Below, piece after piece: positions 39,422 through 62,584 of a stretch of 64,000 nt of DNA. Origin of the DNA: Rhodospirillaceae bacterium (GTDB lineage Bacteria; Pseudomonadota; Alphaproteobacteria; Rhodospirillales; Casp-alpha2). The stretch's first letter is position 1, and the number at the start of each line of letters is the position of its first letter. The stretch is from the NCBI GenBank assembly GCA_018665815.1, contig JABJBP010000025.1, positions 1 through 64,000 of the forward strand, read 5' to 3'. Both the position numbers and the translations under genes were made by a program. A model generated the notes under the pieces. The model did no database searches, was not told the origin of the DNA, and was given only the letters and a program-made list of their open reading frames with translations.

Positions 39422-39969
39422 AGTTCTTATCCAATTTTATGAAACTGAAATGTATTTCGAAGGGATCATTCTTGCCGCCCGCGCCCGCCATGCAACACTG
39501 AATTTTTGGCGCGGGGTACTTCGGTGGGGTTCGGAAACCTTGCATGTCGGTGAACCTACGCGGATTTCGGTGTCCGCTTTGTGGACTAGGGCGACCTCAT
39601 TTCGCTCAAGTGACTTCGGCTGCTTTTGACCCATAACAGACACTTCTCAACTCGGCGGTTCCCTCATCGAATGGGAGCATGTCCGCTTTCAAAATAAAGG
39701 TGGAGCAATCGGCTCTATTCCACTGTGCCCGAACGAGTGGCTTCGCTTTGTTGCTGTGTTCAATAAGCGCAACCGGACGCTGTCAACGCGTTTGATGCCG
39801 AACTGGTTGAACTGATGGCACGTGACTTCACGGACGATCCCCAACCTGTCCCGCACCGATACTGGGCGATCATTTTCAGTTTTTCGTTCTACCCCCTTGA
39901 GGACACCCCACGAACAAGACTATGTGTAAGATATTCAAGAATGGGTACGGACCTGAAAGTGAGCCCGCC
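39422..39969. other. Gene-free interval with coding-like remnants
   Basis: 548 bp without a convincing gene. The left part (39437-39660) holds a short minus-strand frame with alternating 'gaccca...acagaca' and 'gtccgcttt' blocks, of the sort seen in dispersed alphaproteobacterial intergenic repeats. The right part has an open but start-less + frame (39767-39975; VNAFDAELVELMARDF, then PHRYWAIIFSFSFYPLED) that looks like a coding remnant of unknown origin. Confidence 0.35.
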
Positions 39970-40326
39970 ATGTTGAAGATCCTTGAAACCTCAATTGATG
40001 ATCTGATTGCCGTCAAGGCCGCCGGAATCCTGACCGGCAGCGATTACGACGATGTCTTTCCTGTAATCGAAAACGCCATTAAGAAGTAAGGCAAGATCAG
40101 GTTTTTTCTTGATCTGGGTGAATTCGAGGGAATGGACGTCAGCGCTATTTTGAAAGACACGATCTTCGCCATGAGCCACAGAAATGATTTCAAGAAGATG
40201 GCCGCCGTTGGTGACCAGGCCTGGGAAGACTGGGTCGCCAGAGCAGCGGATGTGGTTACCGAGGGTGAAGTTCGTCACTTTCAGTATTATGACAAGGTCG
40301 AGGCGTTTAACTGGGTACGCGAATAA
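39970..40326 (+). pseudogene. SpoIIAA-like (STAS-related) protein gene with an in-frame TAA
   Basis: One reading frame of 118 codons plus stop, interrupted by TAA at codon 40 (40087-40089). Before it reads ILETSIDDLIAVKAAGILTG and DDVFPVIENAIKK; after it GKIRFFLDLGEFEGMDVSAI, then FKKMAAVGDQAWEDWV and a C-terminal FQYYDKVEAFNWVRE. The whole matches the small SpoIIAA-like/STAS family (about 120 residues), in which the position of the stop is normally a residue before G-K-I/V-R. No frameshift is needed, only one codon change. If translated as two pieces, the second has an ATG at 40132, which leaves an incomplete fold. Role of the family: unknown, possibly phospholipid or partner binding. Confidence 0.75.
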
Positions 40327-40504
40327 GATTCCCACTCAGTTTGACCATCTAGATTTTCCGCTTCTGGCGATTAACGGAAGTCGTTCGGCTCTGTAAATAA
40401 CGTCCGGTTAGGTATGATCAGCAGATATCAGCTATAGTCGCGGCCATGATATTTGAACGAAGCGCCGCGCGCGATATCCCCCTGCGATCCGCTATGTCCC
40501 ATCT

Positions 40505-40702
40505 ATGAGCGACATTCCCCAAGATATCTGCCCATGGATGCTGACCGCTTCCCTGGAAACGGGTGTACTTGACCGGGACAACGCCCCGCTGCCGGTGGCT
40601 CATGACGCTCAGCAACGTGGGCTAGTCCGCAACAGCGACGGTGATTGGATATTAACCAGGCTTGGACGAGAGACGCTGAACGAGATGTTGGCCGGCGAAT
40701 GA
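40505..40702 (+). CDS. Small hypothetical protein
   Basis: 65 residues (begins MSDIPQDICPWMLTASLETG), acidic, with a C-terminal helix-strand pattern (RNSDGDWILTRLGRETLNEML) reminiscent of the wing of small winged-helix proteins. It overlaps the next gene by 4 nt (ATGA), which supports translation. Family not recognised. Confidence 0.5.
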   Translation: MSDIPQDICPWMLTASLETGVLDRDNAPLPVAHDAQQRGLVRNSDGDWILTRLGRETLNEMLAGE

Positions 40703-40878
40703 CACGCGCACATATATTAGCGTCCGTCGTCCTGGTCGGCGTGCTGGCCTGGATAGTCTATTCAGTGGTTCAGGGAAAATACCTCGAAGCCGTCGCAATC
40801 AGCTGTATCGGCCCTGTGCTGGCGTGGTTCGCATTAGGTGCCGGCAAGGCCCCGAAAGTCGAAGACGATGAGGATTGA
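40699..40878 (+). CDS. Small two-helix membrane protein
   Basis: 59 residues from an ATG overlapping the preceding stop. Two hydrophobic segments (ILASVVLVGVLAWIVYSVV and AVAISCIGPVLAWFALGAG) flank a short GKYLEA turn, and the tail is acidic (KVEDDED). Inner-membrane localisation is clear; function is unknown. The overlap with the upstream ORF suggests a two-gene unit. Confidence 0.55.
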   Translation: MTRAHILASVVLVGVLAWIVYSVVQGKYLEAVAISCIGPVLAWFALGAGKAPKVEDDED

Positions 40879-40942
40879 GGTGGTGGCGGTGACGTGGTGA
40901 ACGTGCCGGCCAGCAGGTTCTCCGCTGACCGGCGCAATTTAT

Positions 40943-41152
40943 TCAGCTGATGATAGATAGGTTTCCAGCGGAAGTCTTGCCATCCCGTCCGTCCTCAAGC
41001 TCATAGGAAACCTTGTCACCTTCATTGAGCGCATTCAGTCCCGCCGCCTCGACGGCAGAAATATGTACGAAAGCATCTTTTGAGCCATCTTCTGGCTCGA
41101 TGAATCCATAACCTTTTTGTGAGTTAAACCACTTTACAGTACCAGTAGGCAT
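40943..41152 (-). CDS. cspA: Cold-shock domain protein
   Basis: A 69-residue CspA-type RNA/DNA chaperone with RNP-1 ([11 protein letters not shown]) and RNP-2 (DAFVHIS) motifs on the OB fold, starting [20 protein letters not shown] precedes the ATG at 41152. A long untranslated leader would lie in the 41153-41300 region, in keeping with cold-shock genes, but I cannot prove it. Confidence 0.95.
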
Positions 41153-41610
41153 AATCGTTTCCTCTAACAGGCAAATTGAACGCGTACCTCACTGCGCGTG
41201 AGTGCGTTGCGATTATATTGTTCGCAATGTCAGGCGGTAAATACAATTCATTAGGTTTAGGGCTGTATCGATGCAAATTGCGAGGTCTTCTAGATCGCCT
41301 GCACACTTGAAAAGCGAGAGCCCTAGCCATTTGGCGCTGACGGCGCGATCCCCAAAGCGGGCATCTAATCGACAATTTGAGTCTGGTCTTGGCTATAAAG
41401 AGACGTTCAGAAAGCCAGCAAATCACGTCCGCTTTCCGCCTCCAAACAGGTGGAGAACCGAAATTTCAGTATAATGAAAAAAATCAATAATATTGGTTGA
41501 TTTTCCTATTTCATCTACCTAACTCTATTTCATGCTATCCGCACCCAGGCGGGAAGCACGCTATTGGATATTGTGAATACGAAGTCGAAGGGCAGGTGAT
41601 TTCAATCTCA

Positions 41611-41643
41611 AGCGGGATTGGGGTGGCCGGTGAGGCAATCCCG
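41611..41643. repeat. 33-bp palindromic repeat, copy 1
   Basis: GCGGGATTG (41611-41619) and CAATCCCGC (41635-41643) form a perfect 9-bp dyad around a G/C-rich core. Preceded by TCTCAA. A near-identical copy lies in inverted orientation at 42118-42150, so 41605-42156 is a 552-bp segment bounded by 39-bp inverted repeats. It lies in a 1,033-bp stretch (41153-42185) in which I see no protein gene. Confidence 0.75.
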
Positions 41644-41724
41644 CGTGGCCGCACGGCAGTCGCAAAGCTCGTTGTTCCTACTGGGGGATGCTCAGCGCTT
41701 GCGCTGCCACGGTCCCTCCGGGGG

Positions 41725-41774
41725 ATGAAAACTCGCTTACGCGGCCACATTAGTGGCCACGGTCATGTTTTCAT
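41725..41774. repeat. Nested hairpin
   Basis: ATGAAAAC (41725-41732) pairs with GTTTTCAT (41767-41774). Inside lies GGCCAC-ATTA-GTGGCC (41743-41758). It could form a cruciform or transcript hairpin. It sits inside the segment bounded by the two 33-bp palindromes; no T-tract follows, so it is not a normal terminator. Confidence 0.6.
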
Positions 41775-42117
41775 TGTTCCGTCAATTTTTTATCAAGTGC
41801 ATGAAATTTCACCGCTTTTGACCCCCGCTTTGGCGCGTCATAGGGGGATTTGTGGCGACGGATGATTAAGAAAAGCTGACTTTCGGATGACAATTGCTGA
41901 CTTGCGGTGAAATCGTGTACACATTTGTACACCGGCTTAAGGCATTGATCTAAAACGTTTTCGCTGAAATTAGTTCGCGGAAATGCGTGCAAATGATGAC
42001 TTTTGCTGACGGATGCTGACAACGTAAAAACGTGAGGTGGGATACATGCCACCCTGATCGATCACCAGAGGGGCGCGGGCATTGCGTATATGTCCGGCGT
42101 TTTTTCGGTTGCAGAGC

Positions 42118-42150
42118 GCGGGATTGCCTTGCCGGCCATCCCAATCCCGC
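42118..42150. repeat. 33-bp palindromic repeat, copy 2 (inverted)
   Basis: GCGGGATTG (42118-42126) and CAATCCCGC (42142-42150) around TGCCGGCCA, followed by TTGAGA. Its reverse complement differs from copy 1 at only three core positions. It ends 35 bp before radC's stop codon, so it would be transcribed at the 3' end of the radC message. Confidence 0.75.
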
Positions 42151-42185
42151 TTGAGACCGTGTTTACGATTTCATATAAGCCCCAT

Positions 42186-59674: not shown

Positions 59675-60124
59675 ATGATCGTATATCAATTCCGATGCAG
59701 CAACGGCCATGAGTTTGATGCATGGTTTCGCGACAGTTCCACCTGTGATCTTCAGATCAAGGCGGGGGATGTCGAATGTCCGCATTGTGGTGATCAACAC
59801 GTTTGCAAAGCCGTCATGGCACCGAATATCGCGCCCAGCCGTTCGCGCGCCAAATCATTGCCGCCGGAAAGCGACCGGGCCGAAAAGCGGGCCCATGAGG
59901 TTGCCGAGAAAATTCTCGAAGCGGTCGGCCAAATTCGCGGCCACGTTGAAGAAAATTTCGACAATGTCGGCGACGAGTTCGCCGATGAAGCCCGGCGTAT
60001 CCATTACGGAGAAGCCGAGGAGCGAGGCATCTTTGGTGAAGCGACCGACGAAGAAGCCGAGGAATTGGACGAAGAAGGCATCGAAGTTCACCGTCTGCCC
60101 AACCCGCCGCGCCGCGACAGTTAG
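59675..60124 (+). CDS. DUF1178 family protein
   Basis: 149 residues, starting MIVYQFRCSNGHEFDAWFRD, with CxxC-type zinc-ribbon residues (VECPHCGDQHVCKAVM) and an acidic C-terminal tail (TDEEAEELDEEGIEVHRLP). This matches DUF1178, of unknown function, which recurs beside the nitrilase and ubiG genes in alphaproteobacteria. Confidence 0.92.
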   Translation: MIVYQFRCSNGHEFDAWFRDSSTCDLQIKAGDVECPHCGDQHVCKAVMAPNIAPSRSRAKSLPPESDRAEKRAHEVAEKILEAVGQIRGHVEENFDNVGDEFADEARRIHYGEAEERGIFGEATDEEAEELDEEGIEVHRLPNPPRRDS

Positions 60125-60152: not shown

Positions 60153-61655
60153 GTGCCCGCCTCTAGCGCCGGCGCCCGAGCGTATTTTGGGCGAATTCAA
60201 CTGGTCGCAAGTCGATTGTGTTTGGTTTTGCTAATTGGATTTGCCGCCTTGTCGGCACCATCCCCGGTATCCTCAAAGATCCCTTTGTTCGAGGCGGCGA
60301 AGCGGACCTTTGTGCAAGCGACCCGGCATTATCAAGATCGCCAATATGTCGCCGCCATGAAAGTTTTGAAGAAACTTTGGCGCAAATATCCCGTCGGCGA
60401 TGCCGTCTGGGGGCATAGGGATCATAAAGTCGCTAAGCTGCATTAAGGCTCTCCGCCGTTTTACTACGCGCTCATGATGCTCTCGGAGGTGACCCATTGG
60501 CGTCTTAAAAAGAAACCTCAGGGGCCGGCATCGAAAATTACACTGCGCATCGTCCTGATCGGAAAATCAGCCGGCCTGCAACCGCGATCGCCGGGGGAAT
60601 TAACACGCCGCTAAGGCGTGGTCGTTCGGCATATGCTCCACAACAGTCTGCGCAACGACCGAGAAACATTTCATCAATCACTTTGGTTATTTCGGGAATA
60701 CGTTGCCTTCATCACCGGCGGAAAGCTGGATCTGAAAATCAAATTTCTAGACCTGCCGAACGTCAGTGTACCGGTTCGTGTCGCCGCATCGCCGTTGCGG
60801 ATGGCCGGACTTGATTATCAGCGTGCATGGCCGGTTATTTGGAACGCGATCCCTGCTGATATTCAGGCGTCATCGGATTGGTGGTGGATACTTTATCCGT
60901 CTCATGTGCCGCCGAAGTCCGCAGGATTCGGAAACAACGATTTTATTACCGGTGGCATGGCGGCAGGTGCGCGTGGCGAGCCAGTATTCTTGATTGATGA
61001 CCTCTGGTTGGTCCGCAAACCGCCACACCTTGGGGCCGGCGATTATTCCGACCTGGAACGCCAGGCCTACCTGCCGCAATGGCTGCAGCACGAATTTTTC
61101 CATCACTTGTTCCGCAATTATCCGGAATTCAAATTGGAAGCCAAAAGCCATCAGTGGTTTGACCGGCAGGCGTGTCCGAAAGATTTCAAAGGGCAATATG
61201 AGCCCGATTATTATGCCAATGCCCTGCACAAGCGATTGATGAATGCGCGACCGCCGCTGCATGTCACGCTGCGCCACCTGCCAACTGCGGGCCCTGCCCC
61301 AATCCCGAACCCGACAACAAAGCCAGCACCGGCAGGTGCCGCGCTTAGCGACATCGCCGGCACATATCGACGGACGCCGGTTGAAAACGATTGGCATGTC
61401 GGAAAAATTTCCACGGGATCGGCAAAAGGATCGAAAAAGGGTGTGGTGATGTGGCGTAACAAGGCCGGCCGGTCGTGGCGTCTCAAGCCTGATCTTGGTC
61501 GCGGCATGCTGGTCACGGGGCCGGATAATCCCTATTTCGAATCGCAACCTGTCTCTGCCCGCGACTTCACGTTGATTTATAAGACCAACGCCGGTATGGG
61601 CGGTGCAAAAATCATCGGATTCAAATTCCTAGGCGAGTTCTACCGCAAGGATTAA
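60153..61655 (+). pseudogene. Exported zincin-like metalloprotease gene crossed by two in-frame TAA codons
   Basis: One continuous reading frame of 500 codons if the TAAs at 60444-60446 and 60612-60614 are ignored. A GTG at 60153 gives a signal peptide (LVASRLCLVLLIGFAALSA). The middle reads PLFEAAKRTFVQATRHYQDR up to VAKLH, TAA, GSPPFYYALMMLSEVTHWRL through SPGELTRR, TAA, GVVVRHMLHNSLRND. It continues without break to a zinc-protease motif, HEFFHHLF, at about codons 313-320 with downstream Glu residues (NYPEFKLEAKSH). A C-terminal domain follows a Pro-rich linker. The last segment alone (GTG at 60618) is 345 residues and lacks a signal peptide. Family not recognised. Its stop overlaps that of convergent ubiG. 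Confidence 0.7.
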
Positions 61656-62410
61656 GCTCTATCTTTCACGGCAAGCATGATGAAATTGACATCGATATCA
61701 TCGCTTTGATGCCATTCTCCGTTCATCGGATTGTAACTCAGTCCCTTGATATCGGTGATCTCCATGCCGTGCGGACGCAGTTCGTTGGCCAATTCGGAAG
61801 GCCGTGCGAATTTTTTCCAGTCATGGGTGCCGACGGGAAGCCAGCGCAGGATGTATTCGGCGCCGATCTTCGCCATGGCCAAGGATTTCAGTGTTCGATT
61901 GAGCGTTGAGACGACCATCAAACCGCCTGGTTTGACCAAGTTTGCTGCCGCTTCCATGAACAATGCGCGGTCCGCGACGTGCTCGACCACTTCCATGTTG
62001 AGAACGACATCGTAGCGTTTTCCATCCGCGCCCGTATCTTCGGGAAGGACGTGGCGGTAAGTGATGTCCAAGTCCATGATCTCCGCATGGGCGCGGGCCG
62101 CGTTGACGGTCTCGGCGCCCGCGTCAATTCCGGTCACGTTGGCACCCAGGCGGCACATAGGTTCGCACAACAACCCGCCGCCACAACCGATATCAATGAG
62201 ATCAAGATCGCGAAGCGGGCGGTCTGCCAACGGATCGCGGCCAAATCGGGTGGCCGCGTGATCGCGGATAAAGGCAATGCGGGCCGGATTGAGGTGATGC
62301 AGCGGCCGGAACTCACCGTCCGGATCCCACCATTTCTCGGCCAGCCGGGTGAACTGTGCGACTTCATCCGGATTAACGGTGGACTTGGCCGCTTGCACTG
62401 ATGTTGTCAT
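61652..62410 (-). CDS. ubiG: Ubiquinone biosynthesis O-methyltransferase
   Basis: A 252-residue SAM methyltransferase for both O-methylation steps of ubiquinone synthesis. Motifs: EKWWDPDGEFRPLHHLNPAR at the N-terminus, LIDIGCGGGLLCEPMCRLGA (SAM site), VVLNMEVVEHVAD, and HDWKKFARPSELANELR near the end. The ATG at 62410 follows GGAGATGAG. It is divergent from lysC, 174 bp apart, as in many alphaproteobacteria. Confidence 0.97.
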   Translation of the reverse strand: MTTSVQAAKSTVNPDEVAQFTRLAEKWWDPDGEFRPLHHLNPARIAFIRDHAATRFGRDPLADRPLRDLDLIDIGCGGGLLCEPMCRLGANVTGIDAGAETVNAARAHAEIMDLDITYRHVLPEDTGADGKRYDVVLNMEVVEHVADRALFMEAAANLVKPGGLMVVSTLNRTLKSLAMAKIGAEYILRWLPVGTHDWKKFARPSELANELRPHGMEITDIKGLSYNPMNGEWHQSDDIDVNFIMLAVKDRA

Positions 62411-62584
62411 CTCATCTCCGCTCGCGCCGGGCGCGGACTTGTCATGCCTTGAGGTCATAGAGTATGAATGCGCCGCCCGCGCTGCAACCCGCACGATTTA
62501 TTGGTCTCGTTCCGAGAGTTATTAATCCGGTCCGATTCCCAAGATACCCAGCGGCGCGGCGAAGAACGATTTGGAATTGGTAAT

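Follow-up and report, generated by a model that had tools for sequence, protein, structure and literature searches.

We conclude that a protease-like gene of a Rhodospirillaceae bacterium is very probably a horizontally acquired, species-specific insertion between a DUF1178 gene and a ubiG-like gene, and that it was disabled, apparently recently, by two ordinary nonsense mutations. On the same reading, a SpoIIAA-like gene in the same window (the whole stretch of 64,000 nucleotides that was analysed) is a second, independent nonsense pseudogene. The sequence feature is real and its probable explanation is an ordinary one, two nonsense pseudogenes of which the first is an acquired protease-like gene. 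The original prediction had offered three explanations for the in-frame TAA codons followed by GGC in these genes, namely nonsense mutation, systematic base-calling error and stop read-through, and of these nonsense mutation fits best.

Two interrupted genes and their homologues

The features discussed here are as follows.
39970..40326, plus strand: SpoIIAA-like gene, interrupted by TAA at 40087-40089; PF11964 spans the stop, and eight relatives are stop-free
59675..60124, plus strand: DUF1178 gene, the ancestral left neighbour (PF06676, E 6e-51)
60153..61655, plus strand: putative exported metalloprotease-like gene, interrupted; open except for two TAA codons, with homologues aligning from end to end
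60444..60446, plus strand: stop 1, in-frame TAA (residue 98); homologues have V/I/L/M/F, then an invariant Gly
60604..60620, plus strand: inverted repeat of 6 bp without mismatches, CACGCC-GCTAA-GGCGTG, whose 5-nt loop holds stop 2
60612..60614, plus strand: stop 2, in-frame TAA (residue 154); homologues have T/G/K/A/R/S, flanked by two invariant Gly
60618..61655, plus strand: longest part that is still open, 345 aa if begun at GTG; it covers the C-terminal beta domain and most of the catalytic-like domain
61652..62494, minus strand: UbiG-like methyltransferase gene, the ancestral right neighbour (methyltransferase domains)

Re-reading the sequence bore out exactly the earlier description of a protease-like frame that is open except for two TAA-GGC sites. 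Between 60153 and 61652 the only internal stops are the TAA at 60444-60446 (CAT-TAA-GGC) and the TAA at 60612-60614 (CGC-TAA-GGC), after which a terminal TAA closes the frame. There is no frameshift anywhere in this 1.5-kb frame, despite the two nonsense codons. The SpoIIAA-like gene was rightly said to have the same TAA-GGC: its stop at 40087 has the context AAG-TAA-GGC and lies in the middle of the PF11964 domain (E 1.9e-23). The gene lies in a gene-poor stretch, 39422-42185, together with a cold-shock gene that is intact (40943-41152, minus strand); near 41.6 and 42.1 kb this stretch has short segments of similar sequence that look like a dispersed repeat. A Pfam scan of the frames over most of the gene-poor stretch (39.4-42.2 kb) matched the cold-shock gene alone.

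A collection of 84,980 species yielded 32 loci encoding relatives of the protease-like protein; most lie in draft genomes (MAGs) of Planctomycetota, Fimbriimonadales and Bacteroidota, and identity reaches 50%. In a 26-sequence alignment the window frame aligns with its homologues from end to end at 34-45% identity. The original prediction had asked whether orthologues end or start at the stops. None do: 28 protease-like homologues and eight SpoIIAA relatives continue across them, and since homologues read across the stop sites, both interrupted frames are single genes. An AlphaFold2 model of the read-through frame (mean pLDDT 84) has an N-terminal helix on either side of stop 1 and a strand of the same domain soon after stop 2, so neither stop divides natural domains.

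The label of exported protease stood in part. The protein has a predicted N-terminal helix of the export-signal type and a zinc-binding-like motif, HEFFHH, at residues 313-318 of the read-through frame. The residues H313, E314 and H317 are invariant across the family alignment, and the motif sits in a predicted helix (model residues 300-322). In these invariant HExxH-type residues within a helix, putatively catalytic, the family resembles the zincin (HExxH) metallopeptidases. In contrast to the zincins, it has no Pfam family match, no relative in a PDB sequence search and nothing informative in NCBIfam (one weak match of a single family member to a urease model), and a Foldseek fold search gave no hit at E <= 0.001, with metzincins appearing only at E about 0.7 or worse. 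Because the motif comes with no Pfam, informative NCBIfam, PDB or fold match, we use "exported metalloprotease-like" as a reasonable, putative description drawn from the motif. The family (loci L002-L031) may be regarded as a putative family of metallopeptidases that has no name as yet; its members carry a beta domain at the C-terminus, which L032 lacks.

Residues at the stops and the decoding of UAA

If UAA were read through in the UAA-GGC context, whether by a programmed mechanism or because it is tolerated, a full-length protease would be made. The TAA-GGC common to three of three stops and the intact, conserved frame past the stops would agree with this, but the residues expected at the three sites differ. 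In the 28 of the 32 loci that aligned in full, homologues have V (10), I (9), L (7), M (1) or F (1) at stop 1 and T (16), G (5), K (3), A (2), R (1) or S (1) at stop 2, and at the SpoIIAA site eight relatives have H (6), Y (1) or E (1). Aligning orthologues at each TAA, as had been suggested, therefore gives V/I/L, mostly T/G/K, and H/Y/E, and no one amino acid suits all three stops. A stop codon occurs in none of the 28 aligned homologues at the protease-like sites and in none of the eight relatives at the SpoIIAA site. Comparative screening for read-through depends on an in-frame stop being conserved (PMC1914089), whereas every aligned homologue has a sense codon at both protease sites. Like genes that are read through with selenocysteine or pyrrolysine (screened for in PMC1914089), the window gene has a frame that is open on both sides of the stop within a conserved domain. 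Unlike them, its stops are unconserved in homologues, the residues vary by site, the stops are TAA rather than TGA or TAG, and no suppressor tRNA was found.

The use of TAA elsewhere in the genome also argues against read-through. In a 353-kb sample made up of the window and 20 sampled stretches, TAA ends 85 of 229 long ORFs (37%), with TGA ending 84 and TAG 60, in agreement with the earlier statement that TAA is an ordinary stop here. TAA-GGC itself terminates a PhyH-domain gene (L046) and a gene with a weak match to a regulatory-like domain (L062). Past these two ends the frame either no longer codes for protein or seems to enter a new gene. Three open frames in the genome, of 354, 357 and 146 residues, match the RF-1 domain, and by their lengths we take the products to be RF1, RF2 and an ArfB-like protein. 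No anticodon that reads a stop codon (UUA, CUA, UCA) occurs among the 39 tRNA genes detected. The draft lacks a few tRNAs that one would expect, and since the set is incomplete the argument from a missing UAA-reading tRNA is strong rather than complete. One odd tRNA of 92 nt with a long variable arm, called as tRNA-Ile with anticodon UAU (L101, 1498-1589; G000:C5, minus strand), is possibly from a mobile element.

RNA folding is unremarkable at both stops of the protease-like gene (z 0.80, and -1.17 in the region of stop 2), and no Rfam element was found across 38-64 kb. UAA is generally the least leaky stop in bacteria. The differing residues, the unconserved stops, the ordinary terminators and the release factors, together with the lack of a suppressor tRNA, contradict the read-through option of the original prediction, and we consider it most improbable that UAA-GGC is read through to give a full-length protease. 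It is just as improbable that such decoding is put to use in this lineage for both the protease-like and the SpoIIAA-like protein.

Sequence error and the shared TAA-GGC context

A base-calling error that regularly turned a sense codon before GGC into TAA would deplete that codon-GGC pair. We saw no strong depletion of sense codon-GGC pairs in the 353-kb sample. Observed and expected counts are 57 and 39.6 for TAC, 34 and 48.8 for TAT, 60 and 59.2 for CAA, 138 and 147.6 for GAA, 63 and 79.0 for AAA, 14 and 18.5 for TTA, and 21 and 27.6 for TCA. Because the pairs that should have been lost are not strongly depleted, systematic miscalling at a GGC motif is unlikely. A genome-wide search for ABC, SDR and MFS families gave 147 matches, and in-frame stops interrupt none of these genes. 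One MFS match (C97) was flagged as containing two TGA codons, and there the alignment overruns an ordinary gene end. Systematic base-calling error, another of the three explanations offered, is contradicted by both of these results.

An error need not be systematic. A sporadic fault of sequencing, assembly or binning, or a consensus of mixed strains, could have produced at least one of the stops in a gene that is really intact. The genome is a draft of 157 contigs, apparently a metagenome assembly, and the frame downstream of the stops is well conserved and free of frameshifts, as it would be in an intact gene. Against this reading, the TAC-GGC, CAA-GGC, GAA-GGC and AAA-GGC pairs are not strongly depleted, none of the family matches is interrupted, and two near-invariant residues close to the stops are altered as well. 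We therefore regard sporadic error as unlikely. A codon-usage scan for interrupted genes in the 353-kb sample gave 64 candidates, mostly neighbouring genes or shadow frames. It found the stop at 40087 and missed those at 60444 and 60612, and it is too noisy to be used alone.

That GGC follows all three stops, as the original prediction pointed out, is real. GGC accounts for about 5% of all codons and 55% of those for Gly here. Taken naively, three nonsense codons would be followed by one and the same codon with a probability of about 7.5e-4. However, the Gly that follows each protease stop is invariant in 28/28 homologues, and given that the next residues are Gly, the chance that all three codons are GGC is 0.16. 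The chance that all three stops are TAA is about 3-4%. TAAGGC is not over-represented in the 353-kb sample (90 observed, 85.3 expected); in the window it occurs 22 times where 15 are expected, a count reached in seven of 100 shuffles. There are only three events, of which one gene supplies two, and they were picked post hoc from a 64-kb window. For this reason we regard the GGC common to the three stops as a mild, unexplained, post-hoc coincidence and not as a signal.

Probable acquisition and loss of the protease-like gene

Neither the 60 relatives searched, four of them members of the same genus, nor 384 further genomes of the class have the protease-like gene. Its two neighbours are close together in several relatives: DUF1178 and the ubiG-like gene are separated by 234 bp in L064, of the same genus, and by 36 bp in L074, and tblastn found no trace of the protease-like gene between them in either. 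The gene has a poor codon fit (mean 0.095, near the 5th-10th percentile of the genome's own genes) and a GC3 of 0.59, against a median of 0.66. Its absence from relatives, the flanks that adjoin without it, and the low codon fit and GC3 together suggest an acquired, dispensable insertion. Around the gene no repeats or insertion-element ends were recognised, and no plasmid or viral relative was found. For the right-hand neighbour, plasmid records of similar DNA carry a ubiG annotation.

We postulate that the gene was acquired laterally, became inserted between DUF1178 and ubiG where it was dispensable, and then lost its function, apparently not long ago, through two ordinary nonsense mutations. 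Translation should stop at residue 97, past the N-terminal helices, and no HEFFHH-domain protein should be exported. Between the stops, two of 10 near-invariant positions have changed (R108M and G153R, the latter being the invariant Gly just before stop 2), whereas homologues have zero or one change each. Past stop 2, only two of 76 have changed, and these positions are kept as well as in homologues. Changes between the stops with so few after them make the loss look recent. We infer the direction of transfer, the recency of the loss and the absence of a product. The inverted repeat around stop 2 is a possible footprint of quasi-palindrome mutation; stop 2 lies in its loop, next to the changed Gly, so that a single template switch could account for the two changes together. 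We offer this as a lead only.

Some observations do not sit easily with a pseudogene. About 3% of random substitutions create a stop, so neutral decay that has produced two stops should have brought many other lesions, yet the frame has no frameshift and the part past stop 2 is well kept. All three stops, moreover, are TAA, each before GGC. No intact close orthologue was found, and the mutations themselves are therefore unseen.

The good conservation past stop 2 would also be expected if the gene had been shortened, with the fragment from the GTG at 60618 to 61655 continuing to be produced, and kept by selection, as a protein in its own right. This 345-aa ORF begins one codon past stop 2 and keeps nearly all of the near-invariant residues. 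On the other hand, judged by the structure model, the fragment misses both the export-type helix at the N-terminus and a long strand (residues 127-143), whereas homologues in other phyla retain the N-terminal part. Neither a good ribosome-binding site at the usual spacing before this GTG nor a promoter-like site between the stops was found. We consider a functional shortened gene highly unlikely.

The protease-like gene compares best with bacterial nonsense pseudogenes, the outcomes of which have been studied (e.g., PMC13345370). As in those cases, the premature stops are in frame, intact homologues exist elsewhere, the code is ordinary and the gene is dispensable and lineage-specific. The protease-like gene differs in having two stops, no frameshift and a well-kept downstream frame, which suggests that its loss is recent.

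Read-through, if true, would mean that a bacterium with the standard code uses UAA in two ways, depending on context, and this would be new. Our result takes away this candidate recoding signal. It also indicates that such cases can be decided from sequence, by the residues that homologues have at the stop sites, by the use of the same context at gene ends, by depletion of codon pairs and by synteny with the empty site.
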